A DNA stretch of 64,000 nt from Nitrosomonadales bacterium (GTDB taxonomy: Bacteria > Pseudomonadota > Gammaproteobacteria > Burkholderiales > Gallionellaceae). The position numbers and the translations under genes were made by a program. The DNA is taken from NCBI GenBank assembly GCA_016177795.1, contig JACOUM010000010.1:1-64000 (forward strand). The letters run 5' to 3'. Position 1 is the stretch's first letter, and every line of letters starts with the position of its first letter. Positions 3,504-63,779 of the stretch are shown here, piece by piece. The notes below the pieces were generated by a model. That model searched no databases. It saw only the letters and a list, made by a program, of their open reading frames with translations, and had not been told where the DNA came from.

Positions 3504-3632
3504 ATGATTCTGGTAACTGGCAGTGCAGGATTTATCGGCGCAAATTTTAGTTTCGGCATAACGCGCTTTTGCGCATTAGCCTTCACTGAAATTCGAGCAG
3601 AGAGCTTTGTTACTCAGAAAGCTGTCTTATGA
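3504..3632 (+). pseudogene. Duplicated 5' fragment of rfbB
   Basis: MILVTGSAGFIGANF matches intact Rfb[16 protein letters not shown] starting at 3629; then diverges. Confidence 0.8.
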
Positions 3633-4744
3633 TTCTGGTTACAGGCGGAGCAGGTTTTATTGGCTCGAATTTCGTGCTGGATTGGCTGGCCGAACATGAC
3701 GAATCGGTCGTCAGTCTCGACAAGCTGACCTACGCGGGTAATCTCGAAAATCTCGTGACGCTGAAAGACGATGAGCGCCATATCTTTGTGCGCGGCGATA
3801 TCGGCAACACCGAGCTGGTGGCAAAGCTGCTGAAACAATACCGCCCACGCGCCATCGTCAATTTCGCCGCAGAAAGCCACGTGGATCGCTCCATCCATGG
3901 TCCCGAAGATTTCATCCAGACCAACATCGTCGGCACCTTCCATTTGCTGGAGGCGGTGCGTGGCTACTGGTCCGGTTTGGCGGGCGAGGAAAAAACCAAT
4001 TTTCGCTTCCTGCATGTTTCCACCGACGAAGTATATGGCTCGCTCGCCAAGGACGATCCCGCCTTCAGCGAAACGCACCGCTATGAGCCGAACAGCCCCT
4101 ACTCCGCCAGCAAGGCCGCCAGCGACCATCTGGTGCGCGCCTATCATCACACCTATGGCCTGCCGGTGCTCACCACCAATTGCTCCAACAACTATGGCCC
4201 ATATCACTTTCCGGAAAAGCTCATTCCGCTGATGATCGTCAACGCGCTCGCGGGCAAACCGCTGCCCGTTTACGGTGATGGCCAGCAAATCCGCGACTGG
4301 CTTTACGTCAAGGATCACTGCGCCGCGATCCGCTGCGTACTGGAGAAGGGACGAGTAGGTGAGGTATATAACATTGGCGGCTGGAACGAAAAAGCCAATC
4401 TCGACATCGTGCATACCGTTTGCGACCTTCTGGATGAGCTGCGACCCTTGAGTGGAAAGTGGGAAGTAGGAAGTGGGAAAGACACCCACCCCACTCCCCA
4501 CTCCTCATTCCCTACTTACCGCTCCCTCATCACCTTCGTGGCCGACCGCCCCGGCCATGACCGCCGCTATGCGATCGATGCGCGCAAGATTGAACATGAG
4601 CTGGGCTGGAAACCTGCCGAGACTTTCGAGACCGGCATCCGCAAGACCGTGCAGTGGTATCTCGATAATCCGGGCTGGGTCAGCAACGTTCAGTCCGGTG
4701 CATACCGGCAGTGGGTCGAAAAGAATTACATGGGCCGCGCTTGA
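3629..4744 (+). CDS. rfbB: dTDP-glucose 4,6-dehydratase (with in-frame repeat insertion)
   Basis: Family motifs throughout ([44 protein letters not shown]); [23 protein letters not shown] insert near 4450-4515. Confidence 0.93.
4450..4513. repeat. Degenerate (GGGGAGT)n heptamer repeat, two opposing arms, inside rfbB
   Basis: gagtggaaagtgggaagtaggaagtgggaaag followed by acccaccccactccccactcctcattccc. Confidence 0.8.
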
Positions 4745-10200: not shown

Positions 10201-13200
10201 CTATAGCAGCACGCGCTCAATGCCACCGTTATTCGCCTGCGCCACATAGTCTGCCAGCCAGTCCTCGCCAAGCAGATGCCTTGCTATTTCGATGACGACA
10301 TAGTCCGACGTGGTGCCGCTGTCGTCGTTGTAGCGCGACAAACCCTGATGGCAGGCCGGGCAGGAAGTGAGTATCTTGATTTCGCCGGCAAAGCCGTCGG
10401 CGCGCAGCGCATCGGCACCCTTGCGCATTTCCTCTTCCTTGCGGAAGCGCACCTGTGTCGCAATTTGCGGCAGCGACACGCCGAAGCTGCCGGCTTCGCC
10501 GCAGCAGCGCTCGTTGATCGGTACGTTAACTCCCATCAGCTCATTCACTACCTTGAGCGGCTGGTAGGTCTTCATCGGCGAATGGCACGGATCGTGGTAC
10601 ATGTAGCGCACCGACACGGCATCGCGCAGCGCTGGGGCGGGAGGTGCGCTGGCCTGCCGCTCGCAGCTGGTTGAGTTTATTTGGCTTTCATGCGGCAGGC
10701 GCATTTCATCCCCGCCTTGAAGTTTGATGTTTTTCTGGCTTTGGCCGCTACGCTTAACATTCGCTTCGCTTATGTTAGCCTCCGCCGAAAGGGCGTTACC
10801 CTTGCCAGCAAGGGTAACGCCCTTTTCCAGCAAATACTCATGGATGTCGAGCAGGCGGCAGCCGGGAAAGATTTTGCCGAACTGGTATTTCAGCAATTGA
10901 TCCATGCAGGTGCCGCATGACACGATCACCGTCTTGATGTCGAGGTAATTCAGCGTGTTCGCCACGCGGTGGAACAGCACACGGTTGTCGGTGGTGATCT
11001 GGCTGGCCTTATTGCCCTGCCCCGAGGCATTCTGCGGGTAGCCGCAGCACAGGTAGCCGGGCGGCAGCACGGTGATCGCACCGATCTCATACAGCATCGC
11101 CTGCGTCGCCAGCCCTACCTGGCCGAACAGCCGTTCCGAGCCGCAGCCGGGGAAGTAGAACACCGCTTCGGAGTCCTCGTTCAATTTATGCGGGTTGCGG
11201 ATGATCGGCACGATGCCGGGATCCTCGATGTCGAGCAGCGCGCGCGAGGTCTTCTTGGGCAGGTTGCCCGGCATCGGCTTGTTGATGAAATGAATCACCT
11301 TCGCGCGGCTGAGAGGCAAAACCAGCGGCGCACCGCCGACAGTGGCCGGCGGCCGTCTGGTCTGTGCCCTGAACAGGCCAAGGCGCTTGGCGATCCGGTG
11401 GCCGGTGCGCTGCGCCTTGTAGCCCAGCTCGATCATCACCTTGCGCAGCAGCTTGATGACGGTCGGATCGGTGGCGGTCAGGAACAGCATCGAGCCGGCG
11501 GTCACCGGGTTGAATTTTTTCTTTCCCTGTTTGCGCAGGAAATTGCGCATCGCGACCGACACGTCGCCGAAGTCGATGTCCACCGGACAGGGATTCTTGC
11601 ACTTGTGGCATATCGTGCAGTGGTCGGCGACGTCGCCGAATTCGGCGAAATGCTGGATGGAGACGCCGCGCCGCGTCTGCTCTTCGTACAGGAACGCCTC
11701 GATCAGCAGCGATGCGGCGAGAATCTTGTTGCGCGGCGAATACAGCAGGTTGGCGCGCGGCACATGGGTGTTGCACACCGGCTTGCATTTGCCGCAGCGC
11801 AGACAGTCCTTGAACGAATCGGCGATCTCGCCCAGCTCGCTCTTTTCCAGGATCAGGCTTTCCAGCTCCATCAAGTTGAAGCTCGGCGTATAGGCGCGTT
11901 CCAGATTGCTGCCCTTGAGCAGCTTGCCCCGGTTGAAGCGCCCTTCCGGGTCGATGCGCTGCTTGTAGTCGGTGAAGGCGGCGATCTCCTGCGCTTCGAG
12001 AAAATCGAATTTGGTGATGCCGATGCCGTGCTCGCCGGAAATCACCCCACCGAGGTCTTTCGCCAGCCGCATGATGCGATCCACCGCGGCATAGGCCTGC
12101 TGCAGCATCTCGTAGTCGTCCGAATTCACCGGGATGTTGCTGTGCACGTTGCCGTCGCCGGCGTGCATGTGCAACGCGACGAACACGCGGCTCTTCAGCA
12201 CGTTCTGGTGAATGTTGTTGCACTGGTCGAGAATGAGCTGGTAAGTCGCGCCGCTGAAAATATGACGCAGCGGCTCGCGCACTTCGCGTTTCCACGAGGC
12301 GCGCAGCAGGTGGCGTTGCACCGCATCAAACACGGTTTCACTCCCCTCTCCCGCGGGCGGGAGAGGGGTTGGGGGTGAGGGGGGAGCCGAGAGCGGTGCA
12401 TCGAGGTTGTCCAGCAGCCATTGCCAGCGCGTGCGCACTTCGGCAAGCAGCTGTTGCGCCGTCTGCGGGCGGTTGTCGAGCAACTCGGCATCGCCGAGTT
12501 GCGCATCGTCCTGGTAATGCAGCGGCAGTTCGCTGGCGAAAAATTCATCCAGCGCATCCAGCAGCTTGAGCTTGTTTTTCAGCGACAGCTCGATGTTGAT
12601 GCGCTCGATGCCGTCGCAATAATCGCCCATGCGCGGCAGCGGAATCACCACGTCTTCGTTGACCTTGAAGGCGTTGGTGTGTTTGGCGATCGCGGCGGTG
12701 CGCGCACGATCCAGCCAGAATTTCTTGCGCGCCTCGGCGGATACCGCGATGAAACCCTCGCCGCTGCGCAGGTTGGCGAGACGCACGATCTCCGAGGCGG
12801 CCGCCGCCGCCGCATCCGCATCGTCGCTCACCACATCGGCGATCAGCACCATCTTCGGGCGGGTGCCGCGCTTGGCCTTGGTGGCATAGCCGACCGCCTT
12901 CAGGTAGCGTTCGTCGAGATGTTCCAGCCCGGCCAGGAAAACCTTGCAGGCGGAGAAGGGGGAAGGGGGAATGCTGCATTTGTCGAATAATGCGGTGATC
13001 TCGACGATGGCGGGCACCGCCTCGTGCACTTGGCCGAAGAATTCCAGGCATACCGTGCGGGTGTGCGCATGGGCGCGGTGCAGGATGAAGCGCGCCGAAG
13101 TGATGATGCCGTCGCAGCCTTCCTTCTGGATGCCGGGCAGGCCGGAGAGGAATTTGTCGGTGACATCCTTGCCCAGTCCGGCCTTGCGGAATGCGCTGCC

Positions 13201-14250
13201 GGGAATCTCCAGTATCTCCGCTTCGCCGTGTGCAGTCGTGCCGTCCGCTTCGAAACGGCTGATGCGGAAAGTCGCGGTGGCGGCATCGTGGATCTTGCCG
13301 AGGTTATGCCCGATGCGCTCGACCTCCATCCACAGGCCGTCCGGCGTGACCATGCGCCACGAGGCGAGGTTGTCCAGCGCGGTGCCCCACAGCACCGCCT
13401 TCTTGCCGCCGGCATTCATCGCCACGTTGCCGCCGATGCACGATGCATCCGCCGAGGTCGGGTCGACCGCGAACACCAGCCCGTTTGCTTCCGCCGCTTC
13501 CATCACACGCCGCGTCACCACGCCCGCGCCGCAGCAGATGGTGGCATACGGCTCGTTCAGGCCGGGCAGCACCAGATGCTCCACCTCTGAGAACTTGTCC
13601 AGCTTCTCGGTATTGATCACTGCGGAAAATTTGTCCAGCGGCACGGCGCCGCCGGTGTAGCCGGTGCCGCCGCCGCGCGGGATGATGGTCAGCTTGAGTG
13701 AAATGCAGGCGCGTACCAGTGGCGCGATTTCCGCTTCGCTGTCGGGATGCAGCACCACGAACGGATATTCCACGCGCCAGTCGGTCGCATCGGTCACATG
13801 CGAAACGCGTGCCAGGCCGTCGAACTGGATGTTGTCGCTGCGGGTGATGCGCGACAGTGCGCGCAGCACGCGTTTGCGCAATTGCAGGGTCTGTTCGAAT
13901 TCGGCGGCGAATTGATCGACCGCCGCAGCGGCGAGTTCGAGCAGACGTTTTACCTTGGGGTTATTCTGGCGCCGCGCTTCGATGTCGTTCAGCCGGTGAT
14001 GCAGTGCGCCGACCAGCGCCTCGCGGCGCTTGCGGTTGGCGAGCAGGTCGTCCTGCAAATACGGGTTGCGCATCACCACCCAGATATCGCCCAGCACTTC
14101 GTACAGCATCTGTGCAGAACGCCCGGTGCGCCGTTCTGCGCGCAAGGTATTGATGATGTCCCATGCCTCGCCACCGAGAATGCGCAAGACGATCTCGCGG
14201 TCGGAGAACGAGGTGTAGTTATAGGGGATTTCGCGCAAACGTGCCGTCAT
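10201..14250 (-). CDS. Large FAD-linked oxidase / Fe-S (CCG-domain) oxidoreductase fusion (GlcD/GlpC-like)
   Basis: FAD-binding [48 protein letters not shown]; two CCG-like domains; start at [12 protein letters not shown]. Confidence 0.85.
10715..10835. repeat. Dispersed palindromic repeat (copy A), inside the oxidoreductase CDS
   Basis: GGCCGCTACGCTTAACATTCGCTTCGCTTATGTTAGCCTCCGCCGAAAGGGCGTTACCCTTGC-CA-GCAAGGGTAACGCCCTTT. Confidence 0.75.
12341..12384. repeat. Palindromic CCCCTCTCCCGC..GCGGGAGAGGGG repeat within CDS
   Basis: ctcccctctcccgcgggcgggagaggggttgggggtgagg; a related copy lies at 21376-21412. Confidence 0.7.
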
Positions 14251-14517
14251 GAAGTTCCTTTTGCAAGGCGCGCATTTTACCCGAATGTGGCGCGCCGCTC
14301 GACTTTGATGCGGATGAAGCGGAATGTTCCTGTCGCTGCCGGGCAATTTCACGGATAACCCGAGCCGGATACAGGATTAGGAAAATATCGATCATTGCAA
14401 TCCGCCGTCAATGTCGATCCGGTGTACCATTCCACCATGCCCTGGCAGCCTGCCATACTGACCGCGCATCGCGTTTTGTAACGGCAGGCCTGACCCGCAG
14501 CAAGCTACCCGGGGCGC

Positions 14518-25961: not shown

Positions 25962-26013
25962 CTTACAGCCCGGCATCCGCGCGAAGCGCGGCTGCTTTGT
26001 CAGTGCTTTGACT
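25962..26013 (-). pseudogene. Duplicated metK 3'-end fragment
   Basis: Minus-strand [14 protein letters not shown] identical in protein to the intact metK C-terminus but recoded at most third positions. Confidence 0.88.
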
Positions 26014-26095
26014 GCGGCCGGTGCTGCGCACCTTAACATCGCAAGCGATGTTAGCCTTCGCCCGAATAAAGATAAGCACGCCTGCGGCGTGTGGA
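26013..26095. repeat. Dispersed palindromic repeat (copy B)
   Basis: GGCCGGTGC-TGC-GCACC-TTAACATCGC-AA-GCGATGTTAGCCTTCGCCCGAATAAAGATAAGCACGCC-TGC-GGCGTG. Confidence 0.85.
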
Positions 26096-26134
26096 TTGCA
26101 AGCGTTGCCTACAATCCAGCTGCTATATCTGTAT

Positions 26135-26218
26135 TTTGGCTACAGCCACCGCTTCGCGGTTTAACTTGCTTCGCAAGTTAGCCTGCGCCGAAGCACAGAT
26201 AAGCGCCGCAGGCGCGGC
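26135..26218. repeat. Dispersed palindromic repeat (copy C)
   Basis: GGCTACAGCCACCGC-TTC-GCGGTTTAACTTGC-TTC-GCAAGTTAGCCTGCGCCGAAGCACAGATAAGCGCC-GCA-GGCGC. Confidence 0.85.
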
Positions 26219-26219
26219 C

Positions 26220-27398
26220 TTACAGGCCAGCGTCAGCCCGCAGGGCTGCCGCCTTATCCGTGCTTTCCCAGCTGAACTCAGGCTCTTCGCGGCCGAAGTG
26301 GCCATAGGCGGCGGTCTTTTCATAGATCGGGCGCAGCAGGTCGAGCATCTGCACGATGCCTTTCGGGCGCAGGTCGAAATGCTTCCCGACCAGTTCCGCG
26401 ATTTTCTCGTCGGAAACCTTGCCGGTGCCGTAAGTAGTAACCCAGATGCTGGTGGGTTTTGCCACGCCGATCGCGTAGGAAAGCTGGATCAGGCATTTGC
26501 TGGCCAGACCGGCGGCGACGATGTTCTTGGCGACATAGCGGCCGGCATAAGCGGCAGAGCGGTCGACCTTGGACGGATCCTTGCCGGAGAATGCGCCGCC
26601 GCCGTGCGGAGCCGCGCCGCCGTAGGTGTCGACAATGATCTTGCGGCCGGTCAGGCCGCAGTCGCCCTGCGGGCCGCCGACGACGAAACGCCCGGTCGGG
26701 TTGACCAGGTATTTGATGTTGCCCTTCATCAGCTCCTTCGGCAGAATCGGCTTGATGATCTCCTCGATCACGGCATCGATTGCGGACTGCTTCATCTTCG
26801 GCCCGTCGGACATTTCCGGCGCATGCTGGGTGGACAGCACCACGGTGTCGATGGAGTGCGGCTTGCCATCCGCATAGCGCACGGTAACCTGCGATTTCGC
26901 GTCCGGGCGCAGCCAGTTCAGGCGGCCGTCGCGGCGCAATTGCGATTGGCGTTCAACCAGGCGATGCGCCAAGTGAATCGGCAGCGGCATCAGCACGTCG
27001 GTTTCGTCGCAGGCATAGCCGAACATCAGCCCCTGGTCTCCCGCGCCCTGATCCAGGGTGTCGTCATAAGCCTTGTTCACGCCCTGCGCGATATCCGGGC
27101 TCTGCTTGTCATAGGCCACCAGCACCGCGCAGCCCTTGTAGTCGATGCCGTATTCGGTGTTGTCGTAGCCGATGCGCTTGATGGTGTCGCGCGCCACCTG
27201 AATGTAATCGACATTGGCGGCGGTGGTGATCTCGCCGGCCAGCACGACGAGGCCGGTATTGCACAGCGTTTCGGCGGCAATGCGCGAATGCTTGTCCTGC
27301 GCTAGAATGGCATCGACGATGGCGTCGGAAATTTGATCCGCCACCTTGTCGGGATGGCCTTCAGATACTGACTCAGACGTAAACAAATATTCGCTCAT
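26220..27398 (-). CDS. metK: S-adenosylmethionine synthetase
   Basis: Full-length Met[54 protein letters not shown]. Confidence 0.97.
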
Positions 27399-28354: not shown

Positions 28355-29223
28355 TGACCCGAATCGGCATTTTCCTGATGTGGCTGCTGCATTTCCTGCC
28401 GCTGCCGCTGCTGGCCTGGGTGGGCAATGCGCTGGGACTGCTGCTGTACCGGTCTGCGGCGGAGCGGCGCCATGTCGCGGCGACCAACCTGCGGCTGTGC
28501 TTCCCCGAGTTGAGCGAGGCCGAGCGCAGCCGCTTGGCACGGAAGAATTTCCAGGCCTTCGCGCGCAGCTTTCTTGAGCGCAGCATCCTGTGGTGGAGCC
28601 CGGCGTCGCGCATCCGGAAATACATCCGCGTCGAAGGGCTGGAACACTACAAGGCGGCACAAGCGCAAGGTTCGGTGATCGTTCTCGCGCCGCACTTCGT
28701 CGCGCTGGATGTCGGCGGCTCGTGGATGATCCAGCATGTCGATCTGGTCAGCGTATATTCCAGCCAGAAAAACCCGCTGTTCCATAAGATGCTGCTGCAT
28801 GGGCGCTCGCGCTTCGGCGAACAGAAACTGTACGTGCGCCAGCAGGGACTGCGCCCGGTCATCAAGGCGATGCGCGAGCGGCGCCCGTTCTACTACCTGC
28901 CGGACCAGGATCTGGCGACCAAGGACGGCGTGTTCGTGCCGTTCTTCGGCGTGCCCGCTGCGACGCTGACCACCGTGCCGCGCCTGGCCGAAATGACCGG
29001 CGCGCAGGTGGTGCCCTGCATCAGCAAGCTACTGCCCGGCGGCAAAGGTTATGAGGTACGCTTCTATCCGGCCTGGGAGAATTACCCGAGCGGCGATGTG
29101 ACCGCCGATACGCGCCGCATGAACGAATTCATCGAACAGCGCGTGCGCGAAATGCCGGAACAGTATTTCTGGCTGCACAAGCGCTTCAAGACGCGGCCAA
29201 GGGGTGAGAAGAAGCTGTATTGA
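28351..29223 (+). CDS. Second LpxL/HtrB-like acyltransferase
   Basis: VIVLAPHFVALDVGGSWM, YYLPDQDLATKDGVFVPFFGVPAATLT; ATG at 28351 overlaps upstream stop. Confidence 0.87.
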   Translation: MMTRIGIFLMWLLHFLPLPLLAWVGNALGLLLYRSAAERRHVAATNLRLCFPELSEAERSRLARKNFQAFARSFLERSILWWSPASRIRKYIRVEGLEHYKAAQAQGSVIVLAPHFVALDVGGSWMIQHVDLVSVYSSQKNPLFHKMLLHGRSRFGEQKLYVRQQGLRPVIKAMRERRPFYYLPDQDLATKDGVFVPFFGVPAATLTTVPRLAEMTGAQVVPCISKLLPGGKGYEVRFYPAWENYPSGDVTADTRRMNEFIEQRVREMPEQYFWLHKRFKTRPRGEKKLY

Positions 29224-29240
29224 CACCGCGCGAGGTCCGG

Positions 29241-29279
29241 TCACTCAACCGTAACGGATTTAGCCAAATTGCGCGGTTT
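29241..29279 (-). pseudogene. Duplicated glmS 3'-end fragment (second attTn7-like core)
   Basis: Minus-strand [12 protein letters not shown] identical in protein to the intact glmS C-terminus (60521-), with only synonymous differences. Confidence 0.9.
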
Positions 29280-29284
29280 ATGGC

Positions 29285-29339
29285 TTCGGCCGGGGCGTTG
29301 CCCCTTAACGTTCGCTCTGCTCACGTTAGCCTGCGCCGC
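29285..29339. repeat. Dispersed palindromic repeat (copy D), interrupted by the Tn7-like element
   Basis: GGCTTCGGCCGGGGC-GTT-GCCCC-TTAACGT...ACGTTAGCCTGCGCCGC. Confidence 0.8.
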
Positions 29340-29634
29340 TAGTCTCCGCCGTTAAAGTCGTAAATTAAATATATGAAGCAGCAAGGCTTACACGATGGTC
29401 AATTTTAAACAAATTTTTTGTAAAGTCGTAAATTCAGTTCACACTCTAAATCCAATACGTGCAAATCGAACGTCTCGAAACCTGCACTTCGCGAAGTATC
29501 ACTATCGACGCATAGGAGATGTTAGGTCTCATCCAAAGCAGACCTTTAGGTTTTTTATTTCGGCCGCCATTAAGCGAGGCGTATAACAATGGCACTCAGC
29601 AATCATGGCGCACTTATTGATTTTGATAGAACGA

Positions 29635-31117: not shown

Positions 31118-32014
31118 ATGCGCACAACAAAAAGATTTACGCCGTCAGTCCTTACTCATTTCCTCAAAATTGGCCGAGGAACTGGTACTTTCGAAAACTA
31201 CATCCCTTGGCATCGGGTAGGGCGCAGCGACCCTTCCAGCATCGGTCGTTCGCATTTACAGATGTGGCGCGGAAGACAAAGGGAGCTGTTAAGCGACGGG
31301 GAGTGGGTTGGCCTATTTTTTGCGGTCTCAATGAGAAATCTAATTGATCTTACAGAGCAATTCCCTTTGTCCCTCGAAGGCGGCCAGCACGAAATGTCAG
31401 CATATCGCGTTGGCACGCCTCCATCCCGCCATCCTGGAACCTTAGACATTGCAAAGAGCCTTGGTGTTAAACATCCAAAAACCAATGAAAAGGGTTTGTC
31501 AGCGGACTGGGTGATGACAACTGACTTTCTTCTGGCAATTCAGCAACCAAGCAAGCAATTAGAGCTGGTTGCTGTTGCATTCAAACCAAGTGCAGATTTG
31601 AAAAACCGGCGGACAAAAGAACTTTTAAACATTGAGCGTGAATATTGGCTGGCCAGAGGCGTAACCTGGTTGCTCATTACTCCTGAGATATTTGATCAAC
31701 GCGTTGCCCTCCGTCTTAAAGACACGATGCCTTGGGCATTAAGTGATGCCAGTTCAGAAAGCGACCTAATCATTGCCGCCACCTTGGCCAAAGCACTTCA
31801 GGGACATTCACTGACACATGTTCTGGAGCAGCTTACTGCAAAGCTTGGCGACAATAACTACGCCCAACGTACTTTTTGGCAGGCTGTCTGGTGTGGAAAC
31901 ATCCCCCTAGATCTGCGACGAGGATGGCGCCCCCACCTTCCAATCTCCTTGCTCTCAGAACACGACTTCATGTCATTAAATCCAATTGCAAACCGGAGAT
32001 CATCATGGATCTGA
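31118..32014 (+). CDS. tnsA: TnsA-like transposon endonuclease
   Basis: RGTGTFENYIPWHRV..GRSH, LTEQFPL, STDFLL-like TTDFLLAI, VAVAFKPSADLKNRRTKELLNIEREYW, matching the Tn7 TnsA layout. Confidence 0.9.
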   Translation: MRTTKRFTPSVLTHFLKIGRGTGTFENYIPWHRVGRSDPSSIGRSHLQMWRGRQRELLSDGEWVGLFFAVSMRNLIDLTEQFPLSLEGGQHEMSAYRVGTPPSRHPGTLDIAKSLGVKHPKTNEKGLSADWVMTTDFLLAIQQPSKQLELVAVAFKPSADLKNRRTKELLNIEREYWLARGVTWLLITPEIFDQRVALRLKDTMPWALSDASSESDLIIAATLAKALQGHSLTHVLEQLTAKLGDNNYAQRTFWQAVWCGNIPLDLRRGWRPHLPISLLSEHDFMSLNPIANRRSSWI

Positions 32015-34248
32015 TGCATAACTCAGTTTTCAGGATATTGGCTGGCGACAATGCAGGTCTTTACCGTGTTGTGCTGGACGAAATTCAGCGTGGCTACACG
32101 ATTATTGTGCGACTGGATCCTGTGCTTACGGAAAATCAGCCGCGCCGTGGTCGCAAAAAACTCGAGACAATAAAAAATAAGCGCAGAAAAGCTCCCGCCT
32201 CCTTAGTCGGAAAATTAATTTTTGTAGATCGCTCCGAGCTTCAGGCGCTGGTTGACCAAAAACAGCTTTTATATATTCAGGTTGAAACCGAGTTGTTTCA
32301 GCTGTCTCCAAGCGATGAGCCTCAGTTTAAGAGGCGGTGCGAGATCATGAAAGGATTCCTTGATTTCGATAACGTGCGGGAAAAAATCATAATCGACCAA
32401 AACATCAGCGGCCTCATCGATGAAGCCATTACTAACACGGAAGTTAGCAAGCCCCTTGTTTACAAACTATTTTCGTTGCTTTGCCGTTTTGGATTTCACG
32501 AGTCCAGCCTCCGCCCACGTCGCGATCGATGTGGTGCGAAAGGCATCGCTCGTCCCTGCGATCCGTCCGTCCGCCAAAAGCCAGGAGCCAAGACCACCAA
32601 GCAGCGGGTCGCCAGAGCCTACGGACAAATTATTCCGCCTCAACAGCCTGGTATGAACACCGAATGGCGGAACCTGATCATGACTGCCGATAAACAAATC
32701 CCTACGCCCAAGCCCGCTATGCCGGCGCGAACCAAGCTCATTCTGGCCAGTGCCTTCGTCAAAAAATACCGGCAGGATGGCAACAAGCTAGTTGCCGTTG
32801 ATCCCACCCTTGGAGAATATCCGAATAACCGGCAAATTCGTCGTGTCCTTGAGACTGAAGTCTCAAAGCTTCAACAATTACTCGACAAAACAACAAAAGG
32901 CCACTTCGCCCGTAGCATAAGAGGACTCATGGGAAAAAACTGGCAGGGCGTTGCCGGCCCCGGCCACACCTGGGCGATAGATTCCACAATCGGAGATATT
33001 TACCTCCGTTCATCAGTAAACCGTGCCTGGATAATCGGTCGCCCAATTGTTTATATCATTGTCGATGTATGGTCGACAGCTGTTGTTGGATTCTACGTGT
33101 GCCTGACAGGCCCAAGCTGGGACACAGCAAAGGTCAGTTTGTTTTGCTCTGCGGCACCGCCCGAATTTCTCGGAGAACTCTGGGGGTATCAGCCAATGAT
33201 GTCACTCAGCCCTTCTCCAACGATGTGCGCCGCGCTTATGTGTGATCGTGGCGAATACTTGTCCAAGGCAGCTAGCCTCACAGGAGCAAAGTTAATTCCT
33301 TGCCTCAGCTATGCCCCGCCATATCGCCCTGATCTTAAAGGCTTGGTCGAGGTCTTACACCGCATAGAAAAGGATCGTCAATTTTTGTTTGTGCCGGGCG
33401 CAATCGACATGCGACGTCAGGAGTTTGAACTACGGAAGTTCAATCCCAATGAAGCTGTACTCACCGTTCGCGAGTACACCCAATATCTGTATACAATTTT
33501 CACAGAATACAACCTAACCGCAGATCGCACTCACAGGGTTGACGCTCACATGAAAGCAATCGGCGTTTTCCCAAGTCCCGCTGGCTTATGGCGTTGGGGG
33601 CATGAGATGGGAATTGGTGTGCGTCGTGACATACCTTTGTCCGAACTGATCACCAACTTACTTCCCTCTGAACAGGCTAGGGTGACGCGCAACGGAGTTA
33701 TGTTTGCAGGCAAACAATATGGCTCAGACGTTGTAGACGAACAGCAGTGGACTGCATATGCCAGAAACTTTGGTGGATGGGATATTGGCGCTAATCACTT
33801 CCCAGGATCTGTTTCTAAAATATGGGTACCCAACCCAACCGCAAATGGCCTGCTAGATCTCAATATTTCAGACTATTCAACCGCATCGCCTGAGTTGACC
33901 TTTGACGAAGTCGCCGATGCTTTTATGTTCGGCAAAATCAATAATGCCGAGGTTCAGCACGCCAAAACACTCCACGCCTTACAGTCGCTACGCAAAGTGC
34001 AGGAAATCGTTGCAAGCGCGAAAATTTTGACGGACGAGGCGCTTGCTCGCTACAGCGGTGCCAAGCCGAGCATGACTGAAACCCGCGCCTTTGAAACGTC
34101 CACCGCCCAGTCCACGCCTACGTCGGCAACTGCGTCTGGGGCAGATTCATCATCCAGCTGCAACAACGATGATGCCTATTTCATGCATATGGAGATGATG
34201 AGTTCGGTTTTGGCTGCCGTCAACGGCATGGAGAACTCAAATGTCTGA
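32005..34248 (+). CDS. tnsB: TnsB-like DDE transposase
   Basis: HTWAIDSTIGDIYL, MCDRGEYLS, APPYRPDLKGLVEVLHRIEK (DDE arrangement); follows tnsA. Confidence 0.92.
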   Translation: MDLMHNSVFRILAGDNAGLYRVVLDEIQRGYTIIVRLDPVLTENQPRRGRKKLETIKNKRRKAPASLVGKLIFVDRSELQALVDQKQLLYIQVETELFQLSPSDEPQFKRRCEIMKGFLDFDNVREKIIIDQNISGLIDEAITNTEVSKPLVYKLFSLLCRFGFHESSLRPRRDRCGAKGIARPCDPSVRQKPGAKTTKQRVARAYGQIIPPQQPGMNTEWRNLIMTADKQIPTPKPAMPARTKLILASAFVKKYRQDGNKLVAVDPTLGEYPNNRQIRRVLETEVSKLQQLLDKTTKGHFARSIRGLMGKNWQGVAGPGHTWAIDSTIGDIYLRSSVNRAWIIGRPIVYIIVDVWSTAVVGFYVCLTGPSWDTAKVSLFCSAAPPEFLGELWGYQPMMSLSPSPTMCAALMCDRGEYLSKAASLTGAKLIPCLSYAPPYRPDLKGLVEVLHRIEKDRQFLFVPGAIDMRRQEFELRKFNPNEAVLTVREYTQYLYTIFTEYNLTADRTHRVDAHMKAIGVFPSPAGLWRWGHEMGIGVRRDIPLSELITNLLPSEQARVTRNGVMFAGKQYGSDVVDEQQWTAYARNFGGWDIGANHFPGSVSKIWVPNPTANGLLDLNISDYSTASPELTFDEVADAFMFGKINNAEVQHAKTLHALQSLRKVQEIVASAKILTDEALARYSGAKPSMTETRAFETSTAQSTPTSATASGADSSSSCNNDDAYFMHMEMMSSVLAAVNGMENSNV

Positions 34249-35527
34249 TCCAAATTCATTTGACCCTTATTCCGGCAACATTCTGACTCAAGGCTTGGGC
34301 CCCATTCTGTCTCGGCAGCATGCCTTAACTAGGCTGACGTATTTGCCGCCACTCCCGCACGATATCGGTAATGTGCCGAAGCACATCAGGATGCATCAGC
34401 TAATGATGTTGCGCGATTTTCACATACCCTCCATTGAGGGAGGAAGACTCGTTGAAACCATCGATTTGATGGTTCGACCGGGCTACCGCTACCGCGATCC
34501 AAAATCTGCTCAGACATGGGGATTCATCGGTGCCGAGCCAATGCTTCAAAAAACAACGAGAGCGCCTGCGACAGCAGCTGTTGTCGTTGGTCATTCGGGA
34601 ACCGGAAAGACAGAAGCCATTCTGCGCGGACTCAATTGCTATCCCCAACAGGTCATAACCCACGACACATTCCCGCATCTTGTCGATAAACATCGTCAGG
34701 TTGTCTGGCAGTCTGTTGATGTTCCTGCCAGCGGCCACTCATCAGATTTGGCAGCAAATTTGATGATGACCTGGGATGCAACGATGGGGGAATATTTTCC
34801 TGGCTCCCCTAGGCGGTTTGAGGCGGCCCTTGCAAAGGATCGACGCGTTGGATCGAAGATGCTGGATGAATGGCGGCAGGTAGCAAGCAGTCACTTCCTA
34901 GGACTGCTCCATTTAGATGAGGTACAAAATTTTTTCCGCCTGCAAAGCCTCGAAAAACGTCGGAAACAAGCCAAAGAGGCAGGCGGGATGGAATTGAGTA
35001 TCGTGGAAGATCAGTGTCTCAAATGGATACTGACTCTGACCAATACCTGGCAGATCCCGCTGCTGTTGTCTGGCACACCCGATGGAATTGGAGCATTAAC
35101 AAAGCGCCTGAGTAATATTGAGCGTTTTGTCTCATCCGGTTATCACCAGTTTCCTCTCTTTGAAGATGCGAAGAGCCCCATGTTCTTTGAGGGATTTTTT
35201 AAGCAACTTGCCAATTATCAATTCGTGCAAAAACGTTTGGAGGTGACATCCGAATTGGCCGAGCTGATTATCAAGCTGACAGGAGGGATTCCGCGAATAA
35301 TCATCGCGCTTTGGATTGCCGCACATCGAGTTGCATTTGAGAGAAGAAAGGATGACTTAAGCTTGGATGACTTTAATCGTGCAGCGACAACCTATCTAGC
35401 ACCCATTGGCCCCGCAATTGCGGCCCTGCACAGTAAAGACCCGCAACGTATGGCACGATATGAGGATTTGGTCTCTCGTGATGATGGTTATTGGTCTACA
35501 TTTTGGTCTACAGTAAGTTCGATATGA
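34241..35527 (+). CDS. tnsC: TnsC-like AAA+ transposition regulator
   Basis: Walker A GHSGTGKTEAI, Walker B LLHLDEVQNFF; overlaps tnsB stop. Confidence 0.92.
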   Translation: MSDPNSFDPYSGNILTQGLGPILSRQHALTRLTYLPPLPHDIGNVPKHIRMHQLMMLRDFHIPSIEGGRLVETIDLMVRPGYRYRDPKSAQTWGFIGAEPMLQKTTRAPATAAVVVGHSGTGKTEAILRGLNCYPQQVITHDTFPHLVDKHRQVVWQSVDVPASGHSSDLAANLMMTWDATMGEYFPGSPRRFEAALAKDRRVGSKMLDEWRQVASSHFLGLLHLDEVQNFFRLQSLEKRRKQAKEAGGMELSIVEDQCLKWILTLTNTWQIPLLLSGTPDGIGALTKRLSNIERFVSSGYHQFPLFEDAKSPMFFEGFFKQLANYQFVQKRLEVTSELAELIIKLTGGIPRIIIALWIAAHRVAFERRKDDLSLDDFNRAATTYLAPIGPAIAALHSKDPQRMARYEDLVSRDDGYWSTFWSTVSSI

Positions 35528-35539
35528 TTACCATCAACA

Positions 35540-36943
35540 CTAAGCACGGCATTCTTCCTCGGCTCTTGCACGGAGTTCCTGCGCCCGCAACTGTTCACGG
35601 CGGATTTTCGGGCTGAACTTGGTTGCTACAGGCCCCGTAGCCGAACTTGCTTCGCCCGGCGTAAGTTGCCGAGCTCGGCGGACACCCGTACCTCGCCCGC
35701 TTGGCCGTTGCATTGCTTGAAGTGCACGTGTCAAATCACAGCTGGCATTGCGTATCAAATCTTCCATCGCCCCTATGCTGATGTTCCCCTTTTCGGCACT
35801 GGCTTGTAAGGATTGTTTTTCTACGTAGAACGCAAACACCGCTTTAAATACGCTCTGATTGGCTTTTTGAATCAGATTGGGTAGCCCGATGGTTGCCAGT
35901 TTTAACGCCAGTGTCGGCTTGCTAACCGACAAACTCGATGCGATCGTTGAATAATTTCCACGCTCCTGAATATATGCGTCAAGCAACTCATCACGCGTAA
36001 ATTGAGCCGAAGGCTGGCGGGATATTGATGTGGAAGCTGCTGACGACTGGAGCGCATTCAATGCCATATACACGGATTCATATAGAACCGCAAAGGCTAA
36101 AACATAGGCACTTACAGAAGATGCCGAGGTCTTCAAATACAAAACCCCATCCATTTGGCTCAAATGCATCCCCTCTGGCTTATCCGTAAGTGCGGGCAGC
36201 ACCGTAGCTAACCATTTCCGTCCAAAAGCATTGACGATAGCATCGCTTAATAGAGGCGATTTAACCTTGCCACCGTGTGTCTGAAAACCCTGTGCAGATG
36301 CCTTTTCTTTTAAAGTTACCGACACGTGCTTCACGTCAAAAGGTTTCCGAGTATCCAATAAGTTGGAACAAATCTCGTTGTAACGCTGTATCGATTTATT
36401 GTTAAATGCCTGTTTTACCCATTGCTCATCGACGGATTGACAATGCTGCAACTGCACGGCTGGCGGCAACAGAAAGGCAGACTCATCTTCGGTATATTTT
36501 AGCGGTGTTGCATGCTTCGAACACCAAAGCATCCCTGGTATCTGATGTTCTCGCCGCCAATAGCTCTGACCATGAAACTCCTGATCTTCACGTACACACT
36601 CTGCACAGAAATAAGCCCCTGTTCTGGCCAGCTGCATTCCCGTTGACCATAGCATGGAGCGCTGTTGCTCGCCTCCATGCAACAAATCAGGCTGGTAAGA
36701 CGTAATACCGCGCCGGAATGGAAGGAGCGAATGTTGTCTCACGAATATTGGCACATCGGTGCCGGCTACTTTGCTGAGTAATTCCAAACACGACATTTCA
36801 CGCCTTGATTTATCGGCCACGCCGGCCCATATGCTCATTAACGTCACGGCATCTTTTTTTGTGGCACTCCCGTTTCTGCGCATCACACGCCCCAGATAGC
36901 CTCGATCTAATTCCTCGGGATAGGGTGAAGGTCTGGTCAGCAT
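35540..36943 (-). CDS. tniQ: TniQ-family protein
   Basis: YFCAECVREDQEFHGQSYWRREHQIPGMLWCSKHATPL zinc-finger motif. Confidence 0.88.
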   Translation of the reverse strand: MLTRPSPYPEELDRGYLGRVMRRNGSATKKDAVTLMSIWAGVADKSRREMSCLELLSKVAGTDVPIFVRQHSLLPFRRGITSYQPDLLHGGEQQRSMLWSTGMQLARTGAYFCAECVREDQEFHGQSYWRREHQIPGMLWCSKHATPLKYTEDESAFLLPPAVQLQHCQSVDEQWVKQAFNNKSIQRYNEICSNLLDTRKPFDVKHVSVTLKEKASAQGFQTHGGKVKSPLLSDAIVNAFGRKWLATVLPALTDKPEGMHLSQMDGVLYLKTSASSVSAYVLAFAVLYESVYMALNALQSSAASTSISRQPSAQFTRDELLDAYIQERGNYSTIASSLSVSKPTLALKLATIGLPNLIQKANQSVFKAVFAFYVEKQSLQASAEKGNISIGAMEDLIRNASCDLTRALQAMQRPSGRGTGVRRARQLTPGEASSATGPVATKFSPKIRREQLRAQELRARAEEECRA

Positions 36944-37308
36944 TCATCCACCCCCACCTGTGTTGGTGGCACTGAATCTCGCGGCAAACCCAATACGGCG
37001 AGCGACCTGATCACCGTAGACAGTGCTTTGGCATGCGAGGCAGATCCGTCCCAAGTCATTTTCAAAGCGCCAATCAGCTCTTCATTTGCACGGACGGCAT
37101 CAGCCGTCACGCCACCATCAAGGCGCTCTACATAAAGGCAGACTTCCTCAAAAAGCCTCGATGCTCGAAGCCCCTGCGCTTTCAAAATGCGACTGACCTG
37201 AGGCTGGCTGGCACCAACAGCTTCAGCAATTTCTGCCTGCGTAATGCCGTGTAACCGACATGTATGGGCTGCACGCATAGCGCGTGATTTTAAATCTGGA
37301 CTTATCAT
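36937..37308 (-). CDS. Small helix-turn-helix protein
   Basis: HGITQAEIAEAVGASQPQVSRILKAQG; overlaps tniQ start. Confidence 0.7.
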   Translation of the reverse strand: MISPDLKSRAMRAAHTCRLHGITQAEIAEAVGASQPQVSRILKAQGLRASRLFEEVCLYVERLDGGVTADAVRANEELIGALKMTWDGSASHAKALSTVIRSLAVLGLPRDSVPPTQVGVDEC

Positions 37309-37369
37309 TCATTAAGAATACATCAATGCATAAACGAATATCAAGCACAAAAAATATATAGCCCGAATT

Positions 37370-38695
37370 TCAGCCCAGCAAGTCTCCCGAATGCGACCTC
37401 GCAGACCGGCGATTCAGTGCTCGCTCAATGACACGCTGTGTCAGCGGCAAGCGATCCAACACCGAAAGCTTGGCTTTTAGCTCTGGGACTTGTTGATAGA
37501 GCTGCCATAACCGGATAGTAGATCGACCATTTATCGAACTGATAGCTAGTGCCGCCGCCTCTACCGCCATACTGAGCGCAATATCGCGCTGATCCCAGGC
37601 AATTCGTGCACCCCCTACCGAGCACTTACCTGCGCCACGGTCAGGCAGATTCTGCTGTAACCATTGCCAGTCGTTGCGGTAGAGCCAGGCATAGGCAGCG
37701 GGATTAAGACTACGGAGCAGCTTGATTCCAATGTTTCCATGTTCTGCCAACAGCATGCACCACCCTTCCCTCGCTTTTGTCCTCTCGCGCTCCTTGCGGC
37801 ATTGTTTCCATGCCTCATGCAAACCGATTTCACTTCTTAGCACCTGAGTAACCGTGACTATTGAGATTCCATAGGTCTGGGCTGCTATGTCCTTATCCAT
37901 GCCGCATCGAAGGCTAGCGATCAGCAATGATCGACGTTCACCCTTCAAAATTTTAGGACGCCGCGATACTTCGATATCACAGTTTGCAGCCCAAACCATG
38001 ATGGTTGCTGTATCAACCCCCAGCTGCTGTGCAGCGACACGTGCGGACTTACCCTCAGTTTTCATTAACTGGATCAGCTTGGTATTAATCGCATCAAATT
38101 TATCTTCTTCATGTGTGCTAACGACATCGGCCCTTGAATCATCAACCGACGGCACTAGGCCTCGAGGCAAAGCACGATACAAACGAATGAATGAACCCGC
38201 ATCGCCAAAGAGCCAGTCGATTATTAATATGTGCCGAAGGGGATGCGTTCCGCTACACATAGGCCGCAACAGTCGACCAATTTGCGCCTTTGATTCTTCA
38301 ATTGTTGAGGGAAGTGCGACAAGCTCAGGAATAAAACGAAGCAGCCGTGCATATTCCAGAAAGTTGGCTGCGATGATTGAGAGACGAAGACTTCCGCCCT
38401 CCGTCACCCATCCTCGTTGCGTTAATTCCGCACGGTAGGCGCGATACAAATAGTCGGGGTCAAGCTCAACGGGATTTGTTCCAGCAACCAAACCAATTGT
38501 AGTTCGAGCCAGAGAGGACAAGTTTGTCACCGTGACCTCTGTCAGACGGCTAATTTCCGGCGGTAATTCACGCAGCATGCCAATGCCAGGGAGATGCCAC
38601 AAGAAACGATCGACTCCCGTAGACTTGAGCAAAGATTCGCGTAAAGGAATGCCGTGCGTATTGCACCACCATACTGGTGCGTGTCTTTGTTCGAC
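37370..38695 (-). pseudogene. TnsD-like protein, 5'-truncated (C-terminal part retained)
   Basis: In-frame reading begins inside a TniQ-type zinc-finger remnant (RHAPVWWCNTHGIPLRES) then continues to NDWQWLQQNLP..RIAWDQRDIALSMAVEAAAL TnsD-like C-terminus; upstream in-frame TAG. Confidence 0.7.
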
Positions 38696-60449: not shown

Positions 60450-60484
60450 AATTTACGACTTTAATGGCTAATTTACGACTTTAA
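60450..60484. repeat. Tn7-like right-end TnsB-type binding motifs
   Basis: AATTTACGACTTTAA at 60450-60464 and 60470-60484, inverted relative to the left-end copies. Confidence 0.8.
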
Positions 60485-60520
60485 TTGTTTGGAACAGCCG
60501 CAAGCACCGCGCAAAATCGG

Positions 60521-62347
60521 TCACTCAACCGTGACCGACTTTGCAAGATTGCGGGGCTTGTCCACGTCGGTGCCCTTTTGCAATGCGACGTAATAGGCCA
60601 GCAGCTGCAGCGGGATGGTATGCAGAATCGGGCTTAGATAGCCCGCGTGTTCCGGCATTTGCATGATGTGGATGCCGTCCGCCGCGTGGATATGCGTATC
60701 CGCATCGGCGAACACATACAGTTCGCCGCCGCGCGCGCGCACTTCCTGCAGGTTGGATTTCAGCTTCTCCAGCAGTGCGTCGTTCGGCGCAACCGAGATC
60801 ACCGGCATGTCCTTGTCCACCAAGGCTAGCGGGCCGTGCTTCAGTTCGCCGGCGGGATAGGCTTCGGCGTGAATGTAGGAAATTTCCTTGAGCTTGAGCG
60901 CGCCTTCCAGCGCGATCGGGTAATGCAGTCCGCGCCCCAGAAACAAGGCGTGCTGCTTGTTGGCAAACCGTTCGGCAAGTTTGGCGATCTGCGGCTCCAG
61001 ATCCAGCACCTTCTGCACTGCGCTGGGAAGGTGGCGCAGCTCGTGCAGATACTGCTGTTCCTGTTGTCCGGTCAGATGGCCGCGCGTTTTGGCCAGTATC
61101 AGCGTCAGCAGGAACAGCGCGGCGAGCTGCGTGGTGAACGCCTTGGTCGAGGCCACGCCGATTTCAGGCCCGGCGCGCGTCAGCAGGCGCAGCTTGCACA
61201 GGCGCACCAGCGCGCTCTCCGGCACGTTGCAAATCGCCAGGGTATGGCCGTGCCCCTGCGCCTTGGCATGGCTCAGCGCGGCTTGGGTGTCGGCGGTCTC
61301 GCCGGATTGCGAGATCACTACCACCAGGGTCTTCGGGTTCGGCACGCTGGCGCGGTAGCGGTATTCGCTGGCGATCTCCACGCTGCAGCGGATGCCGGCG
61401 ATTGCTTCCAGCCAGTAGCGCGCCACCAGTCCGGCATGGTGGCTGGTGCCGCAGGCCAGGATCAGGATGCTGTCGATGTCGGCAAAAGTTGCCGCCGCTT
61501 CCGCGCCGAAAATGCCCGGCACCAGCGACTGGCTGTTGCACACCGATTCAAGCGTGTTCGCCAGCGCCTGCGGCTGCTCGTGAATTTCCTTCTGCATGTA
61601 GTGGCGGTACTGGCCGAGCTCGACGCTTTCGTTGCTCAGTTCGCTGGTCTGCACGGTGCGTTCGACCTGTTTGCCCGACGCGTCGAAGATGCGGTAGCTG
61701 CGCCGCAGCAGTTCAACCACGTCGCCTTCTTCGAGATACACCACTTGGCGCGTCACTGGCAGCAGCGCGGAAACATCCGAGGCGACAAAATGTTCCTCGA
61801 TGCCCACGCCGAGCAGCAGCGGACTGCCGCGCCGCGCGCAGATCAGCCGCTCCGGATCGTCCGCCGCGATCACGCCGATGGCGTAAGCGCCCACCAGCTC
61901 GGCCAGCGCCGCCTGCGTTGCCACCAGCAGCGAATTGCCGCGCGCGTAATGGCTGTGAACCAGGTGGGCAATGACCTCGGTATCGGTGTCCGAGGTGAAC
62001 ACATAACCCCCGGCGGTCAGTCTGCTGCGCAGTTCCTCGTAGTTCTCGATGATGCCGTTATGCACCACGGCGATGTGGTCGTTGCTCAGGTGCGGATGCG
62101 CGTTGCGCTCACTGGGTACGCCGTGTGTCGCCCAGCGCGTGTGCGCAATGCCGAGCTGTCCTTGGGTTTCGGCGCTTTTCTCGCTCAGTTCGGCGACGCG
62201 CCCGGTGCTGCGTACCAGTTGCAATTGCCCGCTGTTCACCACGGCCAATCCGGCCGAGTCATAGCCGCGGTATTCCAGCCGTTGCAGACCCTCCAGCAGG
62301 ATCGGCACGACATTGCGCTGCGCGATTGCGCCGACGATTCCGCACAT
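60521..62347 (-). CDS. glmS: Glucosamine--fructose-6-phosphate aminotransferase
   Basis: [33 protein letters not shown] ... [12 protein letters not shown]. Confidence 0.97.
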
Positions 62348-62355
62348 TTTTAGAG

Positions 62356-62393
62356 TTCCGGGAAGTGGGAAGCGGGAAGCGGGAAGCGGGAAA
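62356..62393 (+). repeat. Degenerate heptamer repeat upstream of glmS
   Basis: gttccgggaagtgggaagcgggaagcgggaagcggg. Confidence 0.7.
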
Positions 62394-62405
62394 AACACGC
62401 GGCTC

Positions 62406-63779
62406 TCATTTTTCACCTTTCACTTGTTTGGCTGGACGCTTCCATCCGGCAACCGTCACCTGTTTGCTGCGCGACAGGGTAAGTCCGCCCTGCGGCGCAT
62501 CTTTGGTGATGGTTGATCCGGCGCCGATGGTTGCCCCATTGCCCACCGTCACCGGTGCGACCAGCTGCGTGGCCGAACCGATGAACACATCGTCCCCGAT
62601 GACGGTGCGGTGCTTGTTCGCGCCGTCGTAGTTGCAGGTAATGGTGCCCGCGCCGATGTTGACGCAGCTGCCCACCGTGCTGTCGCCGATGTAGCTGAGG
62701 TGGTTGGCCTTGCTGCCCTGCGCGATCTCGCTGTTCTTGACCTCGACGAAATTGCCGATGTGCACATCGGCGTGCAACCGCGTGCCGGGGCGCAGGCGCG
62801 CATACGGACCGATATGGCAGTTGGCGCCCACTTCGCTGCTGTCGATCAGGCTGTACGGCGCGATGTGCGTTCCGTCTGCGATGCTGGCGTTCCTGATGAT
62901 GCTGTACGCGCCCACATGCACGTTATTGCCCAGCGCTACGTCGCCCTCGAAGATGCAGCCGACATCGATCTCGACATCGCGCCCGCAATTCAGTCGGCCG
63001 CGCACATCGATGCGCGCCGGATCGGCCAGCGTCACGCCGTGCGCCAGCAGGCGCGATGCCTCGACCTGCTGCCGGGTGCGCTCCAGCGCCGCCAGTTGCG
63101 CCTTGCTGTTGATTCCGTGAATTTCCCACTCGTGGGCGGGTTGTACGGTATGCACCGCGATGCCCTGTTGCACCGCCATGGCGACAATGTCGGTCAGATA
63201 GTATTCACCCTGTGCGTTGTTGTTCTGCAGCTTCGCCAGCCATTCGCGCAGCTTGCCGGTCGGTGCCAGCAGGATGCCGGTGTTTACTTCGCGGATCCCG
63301 CGCTGCTCCGGTGACGCATCCTTCTCTTCGACGATAGCGAGTACATCGCCCTGATGGTTGCGCACGATGCGCCCGTAGCCTGCCGGGTTATCCAGATTGA
63401 CGGTCAGCAACACCAGCCCGTCGCCCGCCTGCTGCATCTGGTGCAGGGTGCTGTGCTGAATCAGCGGCACGTCGCCGTACAACACCATTGTCTGCCCATC
63501 GTCTGCCAGCAGCGGCATCGCCTGCTGCACCGCATGGCCGGTGCCGAGCTGCGGTTCCTGAATGACGAACTTCGCCGGGTACTGCTGCATCGCCTGCGGT
63601 ACCGCTTCGCCGCCATGCCCGTACACCACGCAAATCTGCTGCGGCCGCAGCGCGACCGCGCAGTCCAGCACATGCTGAAGCAGCGGCTTGCCCGCCAGCG
63701 CGTGCAGCACCTTGGGCTTTTCCGAATACATGCGCGTGCCCTTGCCGGCGGCGAGAATGACGATATTCAACAAATTCAT
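62406..63779 (-). CDS. glmU: Bifunctional UDP-GlcNAc pyrophosphorylase / GlcN-1-P acetyltransferase
   Basis: [35 protein letters not shown]; left-handed beta-helix hexapeptide repeats. Confidence 0.96.

Follow-up and report, generated by a model that had tools for sequence, protein, structure and literature searches.

In the window, by which we mean the whole 64,000-nt stretch of DNA that was analysed, an intact glmS gene and a second copy of its 3' end, the latter adjoining a lipid A acyltransferase gene, are separated by a repeat, here called X, and by a Tn7-like element. The parts of this locus are listed below, T_new denoting the gene end in use, T_old a displaced end (the relic) and T' an arm that pairs with the start of T_new; gene names, here and elsewhere, come from models, not experiments.

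60521–62416, minus strand: intact glmS (NCBIfam TIGR01135, 867.6 bits)
60521–60559, minus: glmS T_new, the cassette-borne 3' end (last 39 nt), common to distant relatives
60501–60512, minus: T' arm of the glmS cassette (GCGCGGTGCTTG); the joined pre-insertion site matches X
60497–60512, minus: T' plus the first 4 nt of X (CGGC), severed by the Tn7-like element; the joined site matches X
29280–29339, minus: rest of the X core at glmS ('repeat copy D' of the earlier note; covariance-model match 29278–29342, 67.9 bits)
29241–29279, minus: T_old, the displaced glmS 3' end (sequence, direct-repeat listing, BLAST)
29221–29240, minus: inverted arm belonging to T_old (GCGCGGTGTC; from the sequence), overlapping the acyltransferase stop codon
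28351–29223, plus: lipid A acyltransferase gene (NCBIfam), convergent with the relic and next to it in G073 as well

The earlier note had read the minus strand from 29279 to 29241 as a glmS end with synonymous differences only, and both this reading and the encoded glmS peptide were confirmed from the sequence: the relic differs from the active end (60559–60521, minus) at 8 of 39 nt, and all eight differences are synonymous (P = 5e-6 under random substitution). The two ends form one of only three direct-repeat families found by a repeat search of the window, and a within-window BLAST comparison pairs them with E = 3e-7. The similarity that had been noted beyond the stop codon (GCGCGGTG) is real and represents the inverted arm of a hairpin, each glmS end forming a hairpin with its own downstream sequence. 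Furthermore, the junction between relic and acyltransferase gene is identical in G073, a genome of the same genus.

The Tn7-like element that interrupts X at this locus comprises the following.

29340–60496: Tn7-like element inside X (TSD GCCGC at 29335–29339 and 60497–60501)
29352, and inverted at 60451 and 60471: end repeats TTAAAGTCGTAAAT
31118–38632: transposition gene block (Pfam)
31118–32014, plus: TnsA-like (Pfam)
31876–34248, plus: probable TnsB, by position and size only, without a Pfam match
34241–35527, plus: AAA/TnsC (Pfam)
35540–36943, minus: TniQ (Pfam)
37370–38632, minus: TnsD (Pfam)

With TnsA, TnsC/AAA, TnsD/TniQ and a 5-bp TSD about 25 bp after glmS, the element has the hallmarks of the Tn7-like group; the insertion lies 19 nt plus the TSD beyond the glmS stop codon, and insertion at such a distance after glmS is established for Tn7. 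Its cargo (38677–59213), which includes an AbiJ-like protein, a ResIII helicase and N6/N4 methylase pair, a ThiF protein, S24 peptidases with a Y-family polymerase, an SRAP protein and an IS110-family transposase, is probably a defence and SOS-type island.

When the element is subtracted together with one GCCGC copy, as had been suggested, the joined flanks read glmS, intact repeat, relic and acyltransferase gene. The same glmS layout, without a Tn7-like element there, occurs in G073, G053, G048 and G005, all of the same genus, and G005 has three glmS ends with two repeats between them. Because excision restores an intact X, and because G073 has X and the relic without Tn7, the Tn7-like element is a later visitor that landed within X. 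The element itself did not make the relic, e.g., by carrying or duplicating attTn7: although it sits precisely between both glmS ends, its clean 5-bp TSD falls inside X, four relatives have the same layout without it, and metK and many other genes show the arrangement too. The architecture of intact end, repeat and relic described in the earlier note, its parallel at metK and its subtraction of the Tn7-like element all stand; what it missed is that the repeat and the active end probably make up one mobile cassette, and that the Tn7-like element arrived later, in the repeat. The relic would also be a candidate for the second attTn7 site that it proposed. As for the two observations that it had named as refuting, relic-bearing relatives also carry the repeat, whether complete or shortened, and duplication of the whole glmS gene does not fit.

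At metK, two such units are stacked.

26220–27398, minus: metK (TIGR01034, 592 bits)
26220–26265, minus: metK T_new, cassette lineage m1
26134–26194, minus: X of metK cassette 1 (covariance model, 65.8 bits)
26109–26136, minus: second metK end (NTDIAAGL and stop, shortened), lineage m2
26006–26067, minus: X of metK cassette 2 (covariance model, 49.5 bits)
25963–26008, minus: third, oldest metK end, within a 49-nt run identical to the active end of G013

The oldest metK relic of the window's genome (G000) is identical over 49 nt to the metK end in use in its sister G013, while the active end of G000 matches that same G013 end at 36 of 48 positions. Conversely, between G000 and G012 the metK body is 73–85% identical, T_new 98%, and the non-coding loop plus T' 95%, the nearest upstream mismatch lying about 6 nt before T; between G000 and G008 the glmS body is 72–78% identical, T_new 89% and the non-coding part 88%, and these steps at T, which concern short stretches, agree between metK and glmS, non-coding sequence included. 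Lineage m1 matches at metK wherever its position is comparable, and the older lineages m2 and m3 lie under it in the same or swapped order (G000, G009, G012, G020). At glmS, the relics of G073, G053 and G048 have an AGA arginine codon, typical of element-free relatives, where T_new has CGC. By these comparisons the active end is foreign and the relic native, and, because the metK T_new is common to a distant species and the oldest relic equals a sister's active end, the cassettes are horizontally mobile and gene-specific. A Campbell-type crossover inside T was considered and ruled out, T_new being of foreign type and T_old of native type from the first codons in G053 and G073.

A cassette consists, in order, of T_new (a substitute gene end including the stop codon), a loop, T' and X, after which the displaced T_old follows. 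It is about 130–190 bp long and non-coding. A hairpin is built from the gene's last codons, its stop codon and a short loop sequence (left arm and loop) and from T' (right arm), which is the complement of the first 8–18 nt of T_new and adjoins X. At the loci drawn from GTDB and the genus, the left edge of this hairpin marks the start of T_new, and T_old begins directly after X. The base before T_new is A in 30 of 30 cleanly registered loci, in which T' matches T_new at 73–100% of positions 1–10. Since the entry point is fixed (A/CAA or A/AAA, i.e., A/MAA, the slash marking the point of entry), T_new takes over the reading frame of the host gene, and the old end comes to lie beyond X; as in gene-end-restoring integrative elements, the old end is displaced, a new one is supplied and the frame is kept.

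T_new and T_old differ by 10–30%, largely at synonymous sites (across targets, 37% of the differences are nonsynonymous, vs. 75% expected for random change); older relics show many nonsynonymous differences as well. At positions at which T_new and T_old disagree, T' goes with T_new by 55 to 2 (p = 2e-14), and at argF of two species, in which the first T_new codons carry synonymous changes (CGTTTGCAT, CGCCTGCAC), T' is altered to match. These results weigh against the proposal that only X inserts, and that repair or replication slippage then duplicates the gene end in situ while fold-back makes T'. Such copying would account for the complementarity of T' to the start of the gene end and for the existence of arrays, and could account for the tRNA sites described below; it is nevertheless improbable in view of the 10–30%, largely synonymous, divergence of the two ends, of a T_new that is closer to the cassettes of other species than to its own old end, and of the 55 to 2 preference of T'. 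More improbable still is a tandem duplication of the gene end with later deletion and drift, which would explain the direct repeats and the metK arrays present in G041 but not the conserved, covarying X between the ends, the precise borders or the foreign affinity of the active end. In L148, L110, L156, L116 and L047, the first 8–15 nt of T_old are often scrambled, the remainder being near-identical to T_new; unequal crossing-over in arrays accounts for some of these scrambled starts, not obviously for all.

X itself is a conserved branched hairpin of about 60 nt with a GCCA end, of the form T'-C-GGC-GNA-GGC-(hairpin 1)-(hairpin 2)-GCC-GNA-GCC-A-T_old. In 43 sequences its covariation was 0.210, as compared with 0.074 when shuffled and at most 0.054 for slid structures, and none of 500 shuffles scored as high. 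The X positions of five loci had no match in Rfam 15, the search returning only a tRNA and chance matches. Shortened forms of X are found at the metK ends of G003, G044, G002 and G011 (L214, L212, L202 and L213), the smallest being C-GAT-GAA-ATC-A, in which a 3-bp stem carries a GNA triloop; because the shortened variants reach this form, they suggest that the essential part of X may be the C/A mismatch, the short stem and the GNA motif.

According to the covariance model, X is present in 58 of the 76 genomes of the genus, in 0 to 23 copies each, these genomes being mostly metagenome assemblies, the window's own (74% complete) included. Besides those at glmS and metK, the window has an X inside an ORF (10733–10791) and a degenerate one at 3545–3592. 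In a pattern scan of GTDB representatives, nearly all X records among the matches listed are named Betaproteobacteria; of 292 genomes sampled across the class, two had X, the window's own and another from its order. An 83-nt X used as query had no match in the plasmid and phage collections, and in IMG/VR one contig of 2.9 million has X, at an rpoD end. The bins of four X-bearing contigs (L122, L130, L144, L152) are titled Klebsiella pneumoniae or Bordetella parapertussis, titles that may not reflect their source.

Targets named by NCBIfam are HypD, CcmE, ArgF, NrdA, FtsW, ProB, transketolase (tkt), SmpB, acetyl-CoA synthetase, PstB and DnaJ, to which MetK, GlmS and tRNAs are to be added; in all, cassettes lie at dozens of genes in Betaproteobacteria, many of them essential. 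In a census of nine genomes, with X picked by the model, a second gene end accompanied 22 of 49 X when scored conservatively (threshold 15; null maximum 12); a further seven X scored 13–14.5. The 20–27 X without a clear second end are perhaps explained by decay.

Cassettes can swap gene beginnings too, since a degenerate unit in the window has a new start codon in T_new and the old start beyond X.

3504–3672, minus: cassette at the 5' end of the dTDP-glucose 4,6-dehydratase gene (3629–4744, plus)
3629–3672: new start of this gene (T_new)
3545–3592, minus: degenerate X (covariance model)
3504–3547: displaced old start (MILVTGSAGFIGAN)

In a further arrangement (type R), a short hairpin, CAACACGCC...GGCTTGTTG, is present and an intact copy is restored on the other side. 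Its sites include, with gene names read from the sequence, the anticodon loops of tRNA-Leu (CTCA/AAATCC) and tRNA-Ser (CTTGA/AAACC), xerC ends and the accC start. Type R needs an additional rule, and we count it against our main explanation, as we do the X that lack a clear second end and the many nonsynonymous differences of older relics.

That explanation, which we regard as probably correct, is that gene-specific inserts bringing replacement ends have spread horizontally and become stacked, the inferred mechanism being insertion of a folded circle; we consider it similarly likely that the glmS relic is an end displaced by a small non-coding cassette, which entered the gene 12 codons ahead of the stop. 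As T' agrees with T_new rather than with the sequence beyond X, the stem should matter in a form where T', X and T_new are contiguous, as in a circle. The mobile form would be such a circle, with T'-X-T_new folded up as a single long hairpin, and it would be inserted by a site-specific recombinase acting in trans, in a manner similar to that of integron integrase with its folded cassettes. Insertion at A/MAA would keep the frame and push the native end beyond X, and with stacking the newest cassette would lie nearest the gene. The match could also be kept by a T_new–T' hairpin in the integrated form or by repair between the arms. Insertion may be due to a host recombinase, e.g., XerC/XerD, to an enzyme that went unrecognised or to one since lost. 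In its most general form, i.e., a class of non-coding, gene-specific Betaproteobacterial cassettes that persist in essential genes because they bring a spare copy of the displaced end, and that a trans-acting enzyme inserts in the form of folded single-stranded hairpins, we give the proposal an even chance.

The main rival holds that the cassettes have no mobility of their own and that insertions of long standing have passed from species to species through natural transformation and homologous recombination, with a left crossover in the gene and a right crossover in the displaced end; we consider this unlikely, if a good deal less so than copying in situ. It makes a special enzyme unnecessary, and, as the donor's T_old is homologous to the recipient's active end, it yields newest-first stacking. 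Moreover, no candidate enzyme tracks X. The number of X was not associated with integron integrase (p = 0.15), Y1 transposase (p = 0.95) or reverse transcriptase (p = 0.15), in tests that ignore phylogeny and genome completeness, and all three are absent from G050, the X-richest complete genome (23 X), and from G064 (10 X). An IntI match above the cut-off is absent in ten genomes with 9–23 X, Y1_Tnp in the X-rich G050, G022, G057, G059 and G064, and RVT_1, the match sought for a retroelement (group II intron, retron, DGR), in G000 and G050. Tyrosine-recombinase motifs near X belong only to XerC, which is a target, and to IntI, in one case with X inside the gene. A search for longer, autonomous forms whose loop contains a gene found none within 8 kb in about 120 loci. 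Against homologous transfer, the left edge lies within about 6 nt of T in the metK and glmS comparisons despite homology that runs on for 1 kb, the downstream neighbour varies among glmS carriers (the acyltransferase gene in G000 and G073, parA in G005), and a mobile step is required in any case to bring one X to many unrelated genes and tRNAs.

Of known systems, integron cassettes (attC, IntI; attG secondary sites) share the folded hairpin site with an arm completed by the cassette's first bases, here the pairing of T' with T_new (55 to 2 over T_old), as well as arrays with the newest unit nearest the entry point; integron attC sites recombine as a folded single strand (PMC11023631). In contrast to integrons, X-rich genomes here lack the integrase, the cargo is the end of the target gene, and each cassette is tied to one gene. 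X as an attC site was rejected: despite a GGCTAAC..GTTAAG resemblance, it lacks the RYYYAAC and GTTRRRY boxes and its ends differ. The genus has ordinary integrons, and the canonical attC sites beside their intI differ from X. A chromosomal integron integrase lies a short distance upstream of glmS in G005 (L094/L245), G007 (L253), G013 (L258) and G020 (L273).

Genomic islands and IMEs in gene or tRNA 3' ends likewise displace an old end and supply a new one, and tRNA anticodon loops are among the targets here; however, they are kilobases long and encode an integrase, unlike these non-coding 130–190-bp units at many different genes. Tn7 and Tn7-like elements share the glmS end as a landing place, but recognise the gene end without replacing it and are here later visitors only. 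REP/BIME sequences (RAYT, Y1 transposases) are also short palindromes near gene ends and have a GNAG motif before the hairpin, but carry no gene-end cargo, and X is unrelated to the presence of Y1; REP families have GTAG or CGTC tags (PMC3733652). The N of GNAG, by contrast, is free in X. Rickettsial palindromic elements are short palindromes in coding genes, sometimes in frame, as is the X at 10733–10791. They are not known to bring along the end of the target gene. No description of such gene-end-swapping cassettes was found in open-access papers, and because only this literature was covered, their novelty is provisional.

If our explanation is correct, selfish DNA can inhabit the most conserved genes without harm and is a steady source of horizontally acquired, chimeric ends in MetK, GlmS, FtsW, SmpB, NrdA and tRNAs, although phylogenies treat such housekeeping genes as vertically inherited. 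The stacked relics would be a readable record of successive invasions, and the cassettes a natural example of precise insertion at chosen genes that bears on how integron cassettes may have begun.

Several individual X copies have an unusual setting. One lies within an integron integrase gene that is not restored (L132). In L308 (G073), a second X is nested, in reverse orientation, in the X at glmS. Finally, one X of the window is read through in frame, as in G013.

10733–10791, minus: X within the ORF 10201–14352, minus (covariance model)

This ORF encodes a 1383-aa FAD/Fe-S oxidoreductase, and the translated X resembles rickettsial palindromic elements.
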